Made by a program: the position numbers and the translations under genes. From the NCBI RefSeq assembly GCF_001864835.1, contig NZ_MJGI01000023.1:11673-75672 (forward strand): 64,000 nt of DNA, read 5' to 3'. Positions 24,414 to 51,237 of the stretch are shown here, in pieces (the stretch's first letter is position 1; each line of letters begins with the position of its first letter). Under the pieces are notes generated by a model. The model had not been told where the DNA came from. It worked only from the letters and a program-made list of their open reading frames with translations, and did no database searches. This DNA comes from Curtobacterium sp. MCBA15_001. Lineage in GTDB: Bacteria; Actinomycetota; Actinomycetes; Actinomycetales; Microbacteriaceae.

Positions 24414-25639
24414 CCGGCATCGGCATCCACGACATCGCGGTCGCGACCGGGCACCACGTGCTCGAGCTCGACGACCTCGCGGTGCAGCTCGGGGTGGACC
24501 CCGCGAAGTACCACGTCGGCATCGGACAGGACGCCTTCAGCGTGCCGGCCCCGGACGAGGACATCGTCACGATGGGCGCCGCCGCGGCCAAGCAGGTCGT
24601 CGACCGGCACGGGGTGGAGGGCATCCGCACGGTGCTGTTCGCGACCGAGTCCGGCATCGACCAGTCCAAGGCGGCCGGGGTGTTCGTGCACGGGCTGCTC
24701 GGCCTGCCGCAGAACGTCCGCACGGTCGAGCTGAAGCAGGCCTGCTACGGCGGGACCGCCGCGCTGCAGCTCGCGCTCGGCATCGTCGCGCGGAACCCCG
24801 CCGAGCGCGTGCTCGTCATCGCCGCCGACGTCGCCCGGTACGACGTCGACACCGCCGCCGAGCCCACGCAGGGTGCCGGGGCCGTGGCGATCCTGGTGAG
24901 CGCCGACCCCGACCTGATCGAGATCGAGCCGGTCGCGGGGCTCTTCACCGCGGACGTCGACGACTTCTGGCGGCCGAACGACCGCTCGACCGCGCTGGTC
25001 GACGGCCGGCTGTCGGTCAGCGCCTACGTCGACGCGTTCATCGGCGCGTGGGACGACCTGGCGTCGCGCGGCGGTCCGGCGTACGACACGATCGACCGGT
25101 GGGTGCACCACCAGCCCTTCACCAAGATGGCGCTCAAGGCGCACCGGAAGCTCACGCAGCACGTCGGGGCCGACTTCGACGAGACCGAGCTCCGCACCGG
25201 CTTCACGTACAACCGGCAGGTCGGCAACACCTACACGGCCTCGCTCTGGATCGCGCTGGCCGCGGTGCTCGACCTGGACGACGACCTGGCGGGCAAGCGC
25301 ATCGGCATGTTCAGCTACGGCTCCGGCAGCGTCGGCGAGCTCGTGACCGGCGTCGTCCGACCCGACCACCAGCGCCACCGTCGGGTGGGTGCGGTCCGTG
25401 CCGACCTCGACGCGCGGGTCCGGCTCTCCGTGCCTGAGTACCGGGCCCTGCACGCCGCGGGTGCCGCGACGAGCGAGGACACCGAGCGACCGCGCGTGAC
25501 GGCGGCGCCGTTCCGGTTCAGCGGCGTGCTCGGCGGCGCACGGCACTACGAGGCGACGGCGGCAGCGACCGCGACGACAGCGACGGCGGCAGCGACCGCG
25601 ACGACAGCGACGGAGGCGGCGGGCACCGCGGGGGAGTAG
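24410..25639 (+). CDS. hmgS: HMG-CoA synthase with repetitive C-terminal tail
   Basis: A 409-residue thiolase-fold enzyme that condenses acetoacetyl-CoA and acetyl-CoA. The catalytic triad is visible: Glu80 (ATESGID), Cys112 (KQACYGGTAAL) and the His pair at 233-234 (WVHHQPFTKM). It starts within the HMGR stop (ATGA) and ends the operon. The final 25 residues are a low-complexity Ala/Thr tail encoded by an exact 27-bp tandem repeat, absent from typical family members and probably dispensable. Confidence 0.94.
   Translation: MTGIGIHDIAVATGHHVLELDDLAVQLGVDPAKYHVGIGQDAFSVPAPDEDIVTMGAAAAKQVVDRHGVEGIRTVLFATESGIDQSKAAGVFVHGLLGLPQNVRTVELKQACYGGTAALQLALGIVARNPAERVLVIAADVARYDVDTAAEPTQGAGAVAILVSADPDLIEIEPVAGLFTADVDDFWRPNDRSTALVDGRLSVSAYVDAFIGAWDDLASRGGPAYDTIDRWVHHQPFTKMALKAHRKLTQHVGADFDETELRTGFTYNRQVGNTYTASLWIALAAVLDLDDDLAGKRIGMFSYGSGSVGELVTGVVRPDHQRHRRVGAVRADLDARVRLSVPEYRALHAAGAATSEDTERPRVTAAPFRFSGVLGGARHYEATAAATATTATAAATATTATEAAGTAGE
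25553..25606 (+). repeat. 27-bp tandem repeat, two exact copies, in the hmgS 3' end
   Basis: Two identical 27-base units (25553-25579 and 25580-25606) are followed by a partial third. The unit length keeps frame, adding nine Ala/Thr residues per copy, so copy number could vary without inactivating the enzyme. Confidence 0.8.
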
Positions 25640-44622: not shown

Positions 44623-45459
44623 TCAGCCGACCCGCTCGACCCGGACGTCCCAGCCGAGGTCGACGGCGCGACGCTCGAGCTCGGAGACGTTCGACCGACA
44701 CAACGACGACCCCGCGCCGGGGTAGTACCGACGGATGGCCGATGCGGGCACGAACCGGCCGCCCAACGGGTCGTCCGTCCGGCGCACCTGCCACCACCGC
44801 GCCGTGGCCTGTTCGAGCGCGGCGTCGAAGGACACCTCGACGTCGACGATCCGCAGCCGGTCGTAGCCCGCGTCGTCGAGCTCGGACAGCAGGTCGTCCA
44901 GGTAGTCCACGCTCGACAGGGTGCCGTGCACGACGACGTTCTCGCCGTCGCGCAGGGACCGCCGGCGCAGGGTGTCCGCGACGGCGGTGGACTCGGCGTG
45001 CACGAAGGCGGCGAGTTCGCGCGGCCGGACCGGGGCGCCGTCGGCCAGCTCGTGCGCGGTCCAGGCGTCGAGCAGCCCGTCGGCCGCAGCGCGTTCGAGC
45101 AGTGCGTCCTTGAAGTCGTCGGCGTCGATGTGACGGTAGGTGTCGAGCTCGGGCATCCGCGCGAGGGCCGTCGTCTTGCCCGCGCCCGGAGGCCCGGCCG
45201 TCACCACCACCGCCAGGGTGCCGTCGTCCGACGGGGCCGGCGTCCGCGCAGCGTGCGCGGCGAGCAGCGACTCGTGCAGCCGCAGGCGCTCGGCGGTGTA
45301 CAGGAACCCGTCCGGGGCGTACCGCAGGCGGGTGCTGCCGCTCGGGTCCTCGGTCCAGGGGTCGTCGAGGCAGGACGCCTGCAGGAACGCGGCGAGGTCG
45401 GCGGCCGTCCGGTCGCGCAGGACACGGTCCGCATCCTCGGACTGCTGCGCCGCGCTCAC
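44623..45459 (-). CDS. Zeta-toxin-like P-loop kinase
   Basis: A 278-residue protein with the Walker A motif GPPGAGKTT at residues 89-97 and the zeta-type IDADDFKDALLE motif shortly after it; VVHGTLSS could be the base-binding segment. Zeta and PezT toxins phosphorylate UDP-N-acetylglucosamine and block wall synthesis, while other members of the fold are harmless kinases. The GTG start overlaps the stop of a small HTH protein (GTGA), as in many toxin-antitoxin pairs. The 80-residue N-terminal helical region precedes the kinase core. No epsilon-type antitoxin is present. Toxicity is not shown by sequence. Confidence 0.75.
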   Translation of the reverse strand: MSAAQQSEDADRVLRDRTAADLAAFLQASCLDDPWTEDPSGSTRLRYAPDGFLYTAERLRLHESLLAAHAARTPAPSDDGTLAVVVTAGPPGAGKTTALARMPELDTYRHIDADDFKDALLERAAADGLLDAWTAHELADGAPVRPRELAAFVHAESTAVADTLRRRSLRDGENVVVHGTLSSVDYLDDLLSELDDAGYDRLRIVDVEVSFDAALEQATARWWQVRRTDDPLGGRFVPASAIRRYYPGAGSSLCRSNVSELERRAVDLGWDVRVERVG

Positions 45460-46045: not shown

Positions 46046-46784
46046 TCAAGCGCCCGGCGGCAGCGCGATCTCGCGCGACCGGTCCCACGGCTCGGCCCAC
46101 CCGAGTCGGGTGAACAGCGCGTCGAGCAACGAGGCGGTGAACCCCCAGACGACGTGCTGCCCGGAGTCCGAGTCGACCGTGAACGCCGGTCCACGCCACT
46201 CCCGGCCGTCCTGGCGCAGCACCGTGACCCCGCGGTGTGCCGGGTCGAGCAGGTCGGCCACCGGAGCCCGGAACACCGCGGCGGACTCTGCAGCGTCCAC
46301 GACCCGGACCGGCGAGGGAGCACGCCACCAGCCGAGCACCGGCGTGACCAGGTGGCGCGAGAACGCCAGCGGCACGGCGGGCATCGCACCGAGCACCTCG
46401 ACGCCGGCGGGGTCCAGCCCGGTCTCCTCCCGGGCCTCGCGCAGGGCGGCCGCTGTGGCGTCCGTGTCCCCGGGGTCGATGCGTCCGCCGGGGAACGCGA
46501 CCTGCCCTGGGTGGGCACGGAGGGTCGTTGCCCGCGCGAGCAGCAGGACGTCGAGGTCCCGCGAGACCGCGTCGTGGTCGGCAGGGCGGTCACTCGGGAC
46601 GTCGTCCAGGACGCCGAACAGCATGAGCACCGCGGCGCGACGGGGTGACTCGGCCGCCGGCGCGACGGGGTGACTCGGCCGCCGGCACGTCGGTGACGAG
46701 CGCGCGCCGGTCGTCACGAGCGAGGGCGGCGAGCTCGGCCCGTGCGCTGCGTGCGGTCGCCCGGTGCGGATGTGCGGTGGTCAC
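46046..46784 (-). pseudogene. NUDIX hydrolase, CoA-pyrophosphatase type, frameshifted by a 25-bp duplication
   Basis: The GTG at 46784 has TAGGCT six bases before it and begins VTTAHPHRATARSARAELA; after PAAESPRRA the frame goes wrong and stops after about 64 residues. A second frame, covering about 210 residues to 46046, continues with AVLMLFGVLDDVPS and carries the Nudix box GGRIDPGDTDATAAALREA, interrupted in print here, REETGL. An exact 25-bp tandem duplication (46633-46682) separates them. Removing one copy restores a single frame of about 237 residues. CoA pyrophosphatases hydrolyse CoA and its derivatives. The 3' part has a possible GTG at 46717 and might still be expressed. Confidence 0.85.
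46633..46682. repeat. Exact 25-bp tandem duplication in the NUDIX gene
   Basis: Units 46633-46657 and 46658-46682 are identical (CGGCGCGACGGGG, then TGACTCGGCCGC). Because 25 is not a multiple of three, the second copy shifts the frame by one base. Confidence 0.92.
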
Positions 46785-46793
46785 GTCCGGAGC

Positions 46794-47333
46794 CTACGAC
46801 CTGCCAGCGTCCGAGCCGGCGCCCCCGGCGACCCCGGCGCCCCCCGCACCCTCGGCGACCCCAGCGCCCCCGGCGTCCCCGGTGACCCCGTCGGTGCGCA
46901 GCGCGTGGACCATGCTCCGCAGCGCCGCCGTCGCGACGGTCTGCTCGTCCGGGCTCATCCCGCCGAGCATGCGCACCTCGACCGCACGCACCGCTGCCGT
47001 CGCCTGCGCGAGCTTCCGTTCCCCCGCCGGGGTCAGGCGTGCCGGCAGGGCCTTGCCGACCGGGGCCTCGGCGGGCCGGGTGACCTCGCCGGCACGCTCG
47101 AGTGCCTGCAGCAGCACGTTCATCGACTGCCGGGTGACGAAGGCGCCGCGGGCGAGGTCCGAGTTCGACAGGCCGGGCCGCTGCGCCAGGAGCTCCAGGC
47201 ACGAGTAGTGCGTGATGGTCATGTCGAGCGGTCGGAGGGCTGCCTCCATCGCCGTTCGCAGCGCACTCGCGGCCTCCTTCAGCAGGTAGCCCATCGAGTG
47301 GTCCAGGTCGATCCCCGCACGGTCTTGACGCAT
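46794..47333 (-). CDS. MarR-family regulator with Gly/Ala repeat tail
   Basis: A 179-residue MarR protein. The winged helix spans about residues 50-105 (LARGAFVTRQSMNVLLQALE and a Pro/Ala-rich wing), flanked by dimer helices. The last 30 residues are low-complexity (GAGVAEGAGGAGVAGGAG) and unlike the family. Two palindromes separate it from the divergent glyoxalase gene, and the nearer one covers its start codon, so it probably represses both. The -10 box of the downstream NUDIX gene overlaps its stop codon. Confidence 0.83.
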   Translation of the reverse strand: MRQDRAGIDLDHSMGYLLKEAASALRTAMEAALRPLDMTITHYSCLELLAQRPGLSNSDLARGAFVTRQSMNVLLQALERAGEVTRPAEAPVGKALPARLTPAGERKLAQATAAVRAVEVRMLGGMSPDEQTVATAALRSMVHALRTDGVTGDAGGAGVAEGAGGAGVAGGAGSDAGRS

Positions 47334-49977: not shown

Positions 49978-51237
49978 TCAGCTGGCGGTGTGGCGGGCCG
50001 AGCGTTCCGCTGCCATCAGGCGCCGGGCCTCCCGGAACCGACGGCGGAGCTTCTCCACCGGGACCTCGACCGCGTAGGCCGCGCCGACGGCCACCAGGAC
50101 CGCTGCGCCGAGCAGCCAGACCCAGTCGAACGCGCCGAACAGGCTCGACGTGACCGTCCCGAGCAGGGCGATCACGAGCGGGTGCCACAGGTACGCGGAG
50201 TACGACACGCGCCGGCCGAACCAGGCCATCGGCGTCCACGACAGCGCGATCGACAGCGGGCTGCGCACCGACACCAGGCCGCCGATCAGCAGCGCGGACA
50301 CCAGCCCGGTCGCCGGCAGCAGCACGCCGAAGGTCCACGCGTGCTGCGTCCAGTCGTCGTCGATCCAGAACTGCACCGCGGCGAGCATGCCGATCCCGAG
50401 CCAGGTCCCGAGGTGTCCGGCGATGCCGGCAGCCCAGGTGCGGACCCGCTCGTCGTCGAGCAGCAGCGCCAACAGGCACCCGGTCGCGAGCGGCACCAGG
50501 CCGAGCACGGGGGAGAAGTACACGTCCGGGGTGGAGCCGCCGTTCGGCGTGCGGTAGCTCGCCCACGACCCGATCGACGCGGCCACGATCACCACGGCCA
50601 GGCCGGCCATCAGCACGCGGCGACGGGCGCGGAGTGCGAAGAGCAGCACCAGGACCGGCGGCCAGACGAGGTAGAACTGCTCCTCCATCGACAGGCTCCA
50701 CGTGTGTGCGAAGACGCCCTGCGTGGTGTCCCAGAACGAGCGGAACAGGTTGCCGGTGTAGCTCAGCGCGATGAAGGCGGCCTCGCCGGGGGAGAACGAC
50801 GCACCCTTGTAGCCGCCGACCCAGGACCACAGGGCGAGGCCCGCGGCCACCATCACGAGCAGCGCTGGGTACAGGCGGAGCAGGCGCTTCACCCAGAACG
50901 AGCCGAGCCGGACCGTTCCCGTGCGACGGTGCTCGCCCAGCAGCAGGGTGGTGATGAGGAAGCCGGACAGCACGAAGAAGACGGTGACGCCGATGAAGCC
51001 GCCCTCGAACCCGGTGACGTGCAGGTGGTAGAGCATCACGATGACGATCGCGACGGTGCGCAGCCCGTCGAGTGCGGTGGCGCGGGTGGCCAGGGGCGCG
51101 GCCGTGCCCTTGCCGGTGGTCGTGCCCGTGCCGGTCGCGGGCGCGGTGGTCGGTGCGGGCGCGATGGTCCGCGTGGTCGGTGCGGGCGCGATGGTCCGCG
51201 TGGTCGCGGTGCCGTTCTCCAGCGTGCTCGAGGACAT
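49978..51237 (-). CDS. Acyltransferase family 3 (OafA/YrhL-like) membrane protein
   Basis: A 419-residue protein with about ten membrane helices. It has the family start LDGLRTVAIVIVMLYHL with the catalytic His, and the GVTVFFVLSGFLIT motif that follows. Such enzymes acetylate or succinylate cell-surface glycans using a cytoplasmic acyl donor. The first 45 residues are low-complexity and contain a duplicated TTRTIAPAP unit. No SGNH domain is fused at the C-terminus. It is a single gene. Confidence 0.87.
   Translation of the reverse strand: MSSSTLENGTATTRTIAPAPTTRTIAPAPTTAPATGTGTTTGKGTAAPLATRATALDGLRTVAIVIVMLYHLHVTGFEGGFIGVTVFFVLSGFLITTLLLGEHRRTGTVRLGSFWVKRLLRLYPALLVMVAAGLALWSWVGGYKGASFSPGEAAFIALSYTGNLFRSFWDTTQGVFAHTWSLSMEEQFYLVWPPVLVLLFALRARRRVLMAGLAVVIVAASIGSWASYRTPNGGSTPDVYFSPVLGLVPLATGCLLALLLDDERVRTWAAGIAGHLGTWLGIGMLAAVQFWIDDDWTQHAWTFGVLLPATGLVSALLIGGLVSVRSPLSIALSWTPMAWFGRRVSYSAYLWHPLVIALLGTVTSSLFGAFDWVWLLGAAVLVAVGAAYAVEVPVEKLRRRFREARRLMAAERSARHTAS
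51146..51199. repeat. 27-bp tandem repeat, two exact copies, in the acyltransferase 5' end
   Basis: Units 51146-51172 and 51173-51199 are identical and in frame, each encoding nine residues of the Thr/Pro/Ala-rich cytoplasmic tail. Confidence 0.8.

Follow-up and report, generated by a model that had tools for sequence, protein, structure and literature searches.

The window, by which we mean the whole 64,000-nucleotide stretch of Curtobacterium sp. MCBA15_001 DNA that was analyzed, carries on its minus strand a NUDIX gene interrupted by an exact 25-bp tandem duplication (Table 1). The gene product matched the Pfam NUDIX family (PF00293) with 52.2 bits, above the gathering cutoff of 21.1, and there are 20 PF00293 matches in the genome with the broken gene included. 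The best NCBIfam match was the CoA pyrophosphatase equivalog NF007980/PRK10707, at 88.7 bits. Because this score lies under the equivalog cutoff of 134, we name the predicted product CoA-pyrophosphatase-like only. Among solved structures, the top match was Nudix hydrolase 11 (E = 3.2e-17), followed by CoA diphosphatases (E = 2.1e-15 to 9.5e-14) that included the Deinococcus CoA pyrophosphatase and NUDT7. With CoA pyrophosphatases of the PRK10707 type (D. radiodurans 1NQZ; NUDT7), the product shares the NUDIX domain and the RATTLRAHPGQVAFPGG and REAREETG stretches, which we take to be marks of CoA-type NUDIX enzymes. It differs from that type in scoring below the cutoff, and CoA is a predicted substrate only. 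Near the NUDIX gene, also on the minus strand, lies a Zeta-toxin/AAA-type kinase-like open reading frame (ORF) (window positions 44623 to 45459; Pfam Zeta_toxin, 45.7 bits), which was seen in just 2 of the 29 genus loci compared, where flanks were short.

Table 1. Features of the interrupted NUDIX gene, in window coordinates
Feature	Position	Strand	Basis
Predicted leaderless-type promoter -10 element: TAGGCT and 6-base spacer ahead of GTG	46785..46796	-	Read in the sequence; TANNNT at equal spacing in genus orthologs
Original start frame from GTG 46784; in frame with the N terminus of relatives as far as the repeat and out of frame beyond it	46590..46784	-	Translation
Alternative 223-aa ORF from internal GTG 46717, in the NUDIX frame, lacking the conserved N-terminal helix	46046..46717	-	ORF listing; structure model of an intact ortholog
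CGGC, 4-bp microhomology; third occurrence, lengthens the identity run to 29	46683..46686	-	Direct comparison
Copy 1 (transcribed first), 25 bp	46658..46682	-	Tandem Repeats Finder, direct comparison
Copy 2 (transcribed second), 25 bp, identical to copy 1	46633..46657	-	Tandem Repeats Finder, direct comparison
NUDIX (CoA-pyrophosphatase-like) frame past the break, uninterrupted as far as its stop at 46046	46046..46657	-	Translation; PF00293; PRK10707; solved-structure similarity

Anatomy of the duplication and its reading frames

Tandem Repeats Finder reported a period of 25 from position 46633, and direct comparison gave a period-25 identity run of 29 bases from the same position; the whole repeat spans 54 bp of the NUDIX gene. 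An identity run of 29 bp with a unit of 25 bp indicates a 4-bp microhomology, CGGC, at the duplication junction. The exact tandem copy of the 25-bp unit and the junction CGGC together place the event among microhomology-mediated tandem duplications. Perfect duplications with units of 15 to 60 bp occurred six times in the 64-kb window and not once in twenty third-order Markov versions, and the 25-bp duplication is therefore not a product of chance. An unusual DNA fold was sought in the repeat and none was found (z = 0.80 and 0.14 for 54 nt; z = 0.19 and -0.85 for 25 nt). Along with the translations, the repeat search and direct comparison confirmed what a sequence-only reading had proposed, namely, that two identical adjacent 25-base copies sit exactly where the reading frame of the gene changes.

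Positions 46784 to 46659 of the start frame translate as VTTAHPHRATARSARAELAALARDDRRALVTDVPAAESPRRA, up to the repeat. The N-terminal ARAELAAL of this stretch is similar to that of orthologs, and its last in-frame residues before the break are ...PAAESPRRA. Read onward from GTG 46784, the frame reaches a stop at 46592 to 46590, after 64 codons. Positions 46657 to 46049 translate in the NUDIX frame as AAESPRRAAVLMLFGVLDD... and are stop-free; from the other repeat copy, the NUDIX frame reads AAESPRRAAVLMLFG.... Each copy encodes AAESPRR in its own frame, as is predicted for a duplication within a coding segment. The idea that the gene carries more than one lesion was rejected on the basis of the downstream frame, which is open to its stop and under coding constraint.

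The TAGGCT-N6-GTG arrangement that had been read at the gene start is present at GTG 46784. A consensus scan for sigma-70 promoters, which has other promoter types outside its coverage, found none for the NUDIX gene. Of 57 genus orthologs searched for an in-frame TANNNT-N6-GTG, 36 carried it, while this pattern was not found in the two nearest relatives by identity (L004 and L005). Translation of the gene is probably leaderless.

Relatives and duplications elsewhere on the contig

We compared the locus across 66 Curtobacterium genomes, one per species and its own included. The gene had a match in 64 of these genomes, again counting its own. Matches were only weak in three (G002, G042, and G043) and absent from two (G024 and G057, the latter 88% complete), and an ortholog was found in 60 of the 65 other-species genomes. 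The repeat site could be read in 59 of the 60 orthologs; the remaining one, in G049, stops at a contig edge. All 59 had 30 or more open codons in the NUDIX frame ahead of AAVLxLFG. A perfect tandem duplication (unit of 9 to 59 bp) was found at the site in none of them; run on the window as a positive control, the same script recovered the 25-bp unit. The comparison with related genomes that had been suggested to look for a single-copy, intact gene thus returned an open frame across the site, with no tandem copy, throughout the readable orthologs. A second set of 80 named loci, drawn partly from the same genomes, contained 78 that were readable in the region, none with a perfect tandem repeat of unit 9 to 59. 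On these two counts, the repeat was rejected as a feature of the family. Relative to the other species among the genomes compared, the duplication appears to be private to its lineage. The three nearest loci preserved the order of the gene relative to MarR and its downstream neighbor, L006 with approximately 1 kb extra in between. One other ortholog (G010:C1:3766759-3767369) is split mid-gene between two frames; with that genome listed at 65% completeness, this is possibly a sequencing error.

The part of the gene after the repeat was compared with the three nearest relatives, giving pairwise dN of 0.075 to 0.078, dS of 0.63 to 0.76, and dN/dS of 0.10 to 0.12. Comparisons between intact relatives gave ratios that were about the same or higher. 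Because a pairwise dN/dS spans mostly the time before the break, all that these values exclude is a prolonged decay. The remaining gene is without decay, and the duplication event therefore looks recent.

The survey of such duplications covered 464 kb of the 483-kb contig, made up of the window and a further 400 kb. This span held 15 perfect duplications with units of 15 to 100 bp. Tandem duplications are thus commonplace in this genome, at approximately one per 31 kb surveyed. Eight of the 15 units are divisible by three, and all four of these that lie in the window were checked and fall within long ORFs. Among the seven units that are not divisible by three, the 25-bp duplication in the NUDIX gene is the sole one read as being in a gene; the other six were read as outside genes from the ORF listing, with the L153 and L163 cases judged by eye. 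A frame-breaking duplication inside a gene is the exception. The longest identity run among the perfect duplications in the surveyed 464 kb (51) belongs to a different 25-bp unit in three exact copies, at L162 8192 to 8267 (own contig), which lies between an ORF judged deaminase-like by eye and a convergent ORF. Two 27-bp perfect duplications in the window (51146 to 51206 and 25553 to 25613) have an identity run of 34, keep the frame, and lie within long ORFs.

Origin and consequence of the interrupted allele

We consider it very probable that the locus holds a recent, lineage-private, and possibly reversible loss-of-function allele that arose from a slippage duplication. Two CGGC motifs (CGGCRCG) would have stood 25 bp from each other in the 5' region of the NUDIX gene, and during replication the polymerase would have slipped between them and copied the segment twice. 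The presence of CGGC at each end of the unit is consistent with slippage of this kind at microhomologies. Since 25 is not divisible by three, a message from GTG 46784 would leave the NUDIX frame at the repeat, after approximately 42 codons, and terminate at codon 64. The premature end would leave little or no working NUDIX enzyme. Activity has probably been lost or strongly reduced, with leaky activity possible, since the internal in-frame GTG 46717 leaves an unbroken 223-aa ORF from which some enzyme could still be made. As with any young tandem duplication, the allele could revert through slippage loss of one copy. The accident behind the break may be reversible, with restoration of the frame through loss of a copy a plausible prediction from its anatomy. 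So understood, the locus would offer a clean, recent instance of gene loss through replication slippage.

The same internal start underlies the proposal that the gene still works, in which translation from GTG 46717 (or from 46630 or 46624) makes the duplication a mere swap of a dispensable N terminus. The uninterrupted ORF in the NUDIX frame speaks for this proposal, as does the variability of the family in the first 30 residues. However, no purine-rich ribosome site was seen by eye ahead of GTG 46717, GTG 46630, or ATG 46624. For the intact ortholog L065, an AlphaFold2 model with a mean pLDDT of 89.7 was confident for a helix at residues 11 to 21 and a strand at residues 37 to 46, with block means of 93 for residues 11 to 20 and 92 for residues 31 to 40, and the conserved ARAxLxAL sits in that helix. 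Judging from this model, a start at 46717 would drop the ARAELAAL helix, and starts at 46630 or 46624 would cut into the strand. We regard a still-functional gene as improbable. An assembly or sequencing artifact, in which the chromosome holds a single copy, is very improbable: the assembly is a draft of 27 contigs, but the 54-base repeat fits inside one ordinary short read, listed completeness is 99.99%, and assemblers are more prone to collapsing repeats than to adding them.

The sequence-only reading had left open whether the duplication was a very recent knockout or a phase-variation switch. Of these two, the knockout has held up, given the open frame in all 59 readable orthologs and the lack of decay, while the switch gained no positive evidence. 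With a switch, the 25-bp copy would be gained and lost repeatedly, and selection would have favored this as a means of turning the NUDIX gene off and on. Consistent with this, the unit length is not divisible by three, and the copies are exact and lie close to the 5' end of a gene that is free of decay elsewhere. Duplications in the pneumococcal capsule genes cap3A, cap8E, and tts (Waite et al. 2001, 2003, as cited in PMC4243769, PMC2995930, and PMC4022640) also lend it some plausibility, as passages of PMC4243769 describe them as reversible and passages of PMC2995930 tie those in cap3A to high-frequency phase variation. Yet the duplication occurs in none of the 59 readable genus orthologs, each from another species, and copy number does not vary among them. 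Only two copies are present, and no alternative, one-copy form exists in the genome's own assembly, where the nearest match elsewhere is 46 bases at 80%. Perfect duplications are common in the genome, the repeat has no unusual fold, and a 4-bp microhomology flanks the unit, as in an ordinary slippage event. A NUDIX hydrolase is not a typical contingency gene, and this one is apparently dispensable, its ortholog not having been found in 5 of the 66 genomes (one of them 88% complete). A literature search pairing Curtobacterium with phase variation returned no paper with either term in its title or abstract. We hold a phase-variation switch to be unsupported and very unlikely. We give equally little credence to the related idea that cells might toggle CoA turnover by slippage between two 29-bp identity arms, with the duplication persisting in this lineage as a reversible off-state of an enzyme that degrades CoA.

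Comparison with known duplication alleles

A recent slippage allele of the kind that we favor invites comparison with simple-sequence-repeat contingency loci, which are built of numerous short units and differ from strain to strain. In both, a change in repeat number would shift the frame; in contrast to those loci, the NUDIX gene has two 25-bp copies and no variation among 59 relatives. The case illustrates the difference between a young duplication allele and an evolved switch. A eukaryotic counterpart is found in ssp1 of fission yeast. Passages of a review (PMC13207564) describe microhomology-mediated tandem duplications in fungi, ssp1 among them, with the same geometry and call them reversible. 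As described in those passages, the ssp1 duplications share with the NUDIX allele a short tandem duplication in a coding region, bounds of a few bases of microhomology, and a premature stop, whereas the reversibility of the NUDIX allele is predicted from its anatomy only.

With the pneumococcal cap3A, cap8E, and tts duplications, as far as the cited passages describe them, the NUDIX allele shares a duplication within an ORF that turns the gene off and can be reversed, the reversal being only predicted here. Phase variation is reported for the capsule genes, while the NUDIX allele is known from a single static assembly and affects a metabolic gene. If reversion is real, the pneumococcal type of duplication switch would extend to a metabolic gene in an actinobacterium. 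A passage of PMC4022640 expects reversion at 1e-5 or below for insertions no longer than nine bases; the 25-bp unit may revert more often than that, although this is a guess. Phase-variable promoter repeats in another actinobacterium, as presented in passages of PMC12817950, are a different arrangement.
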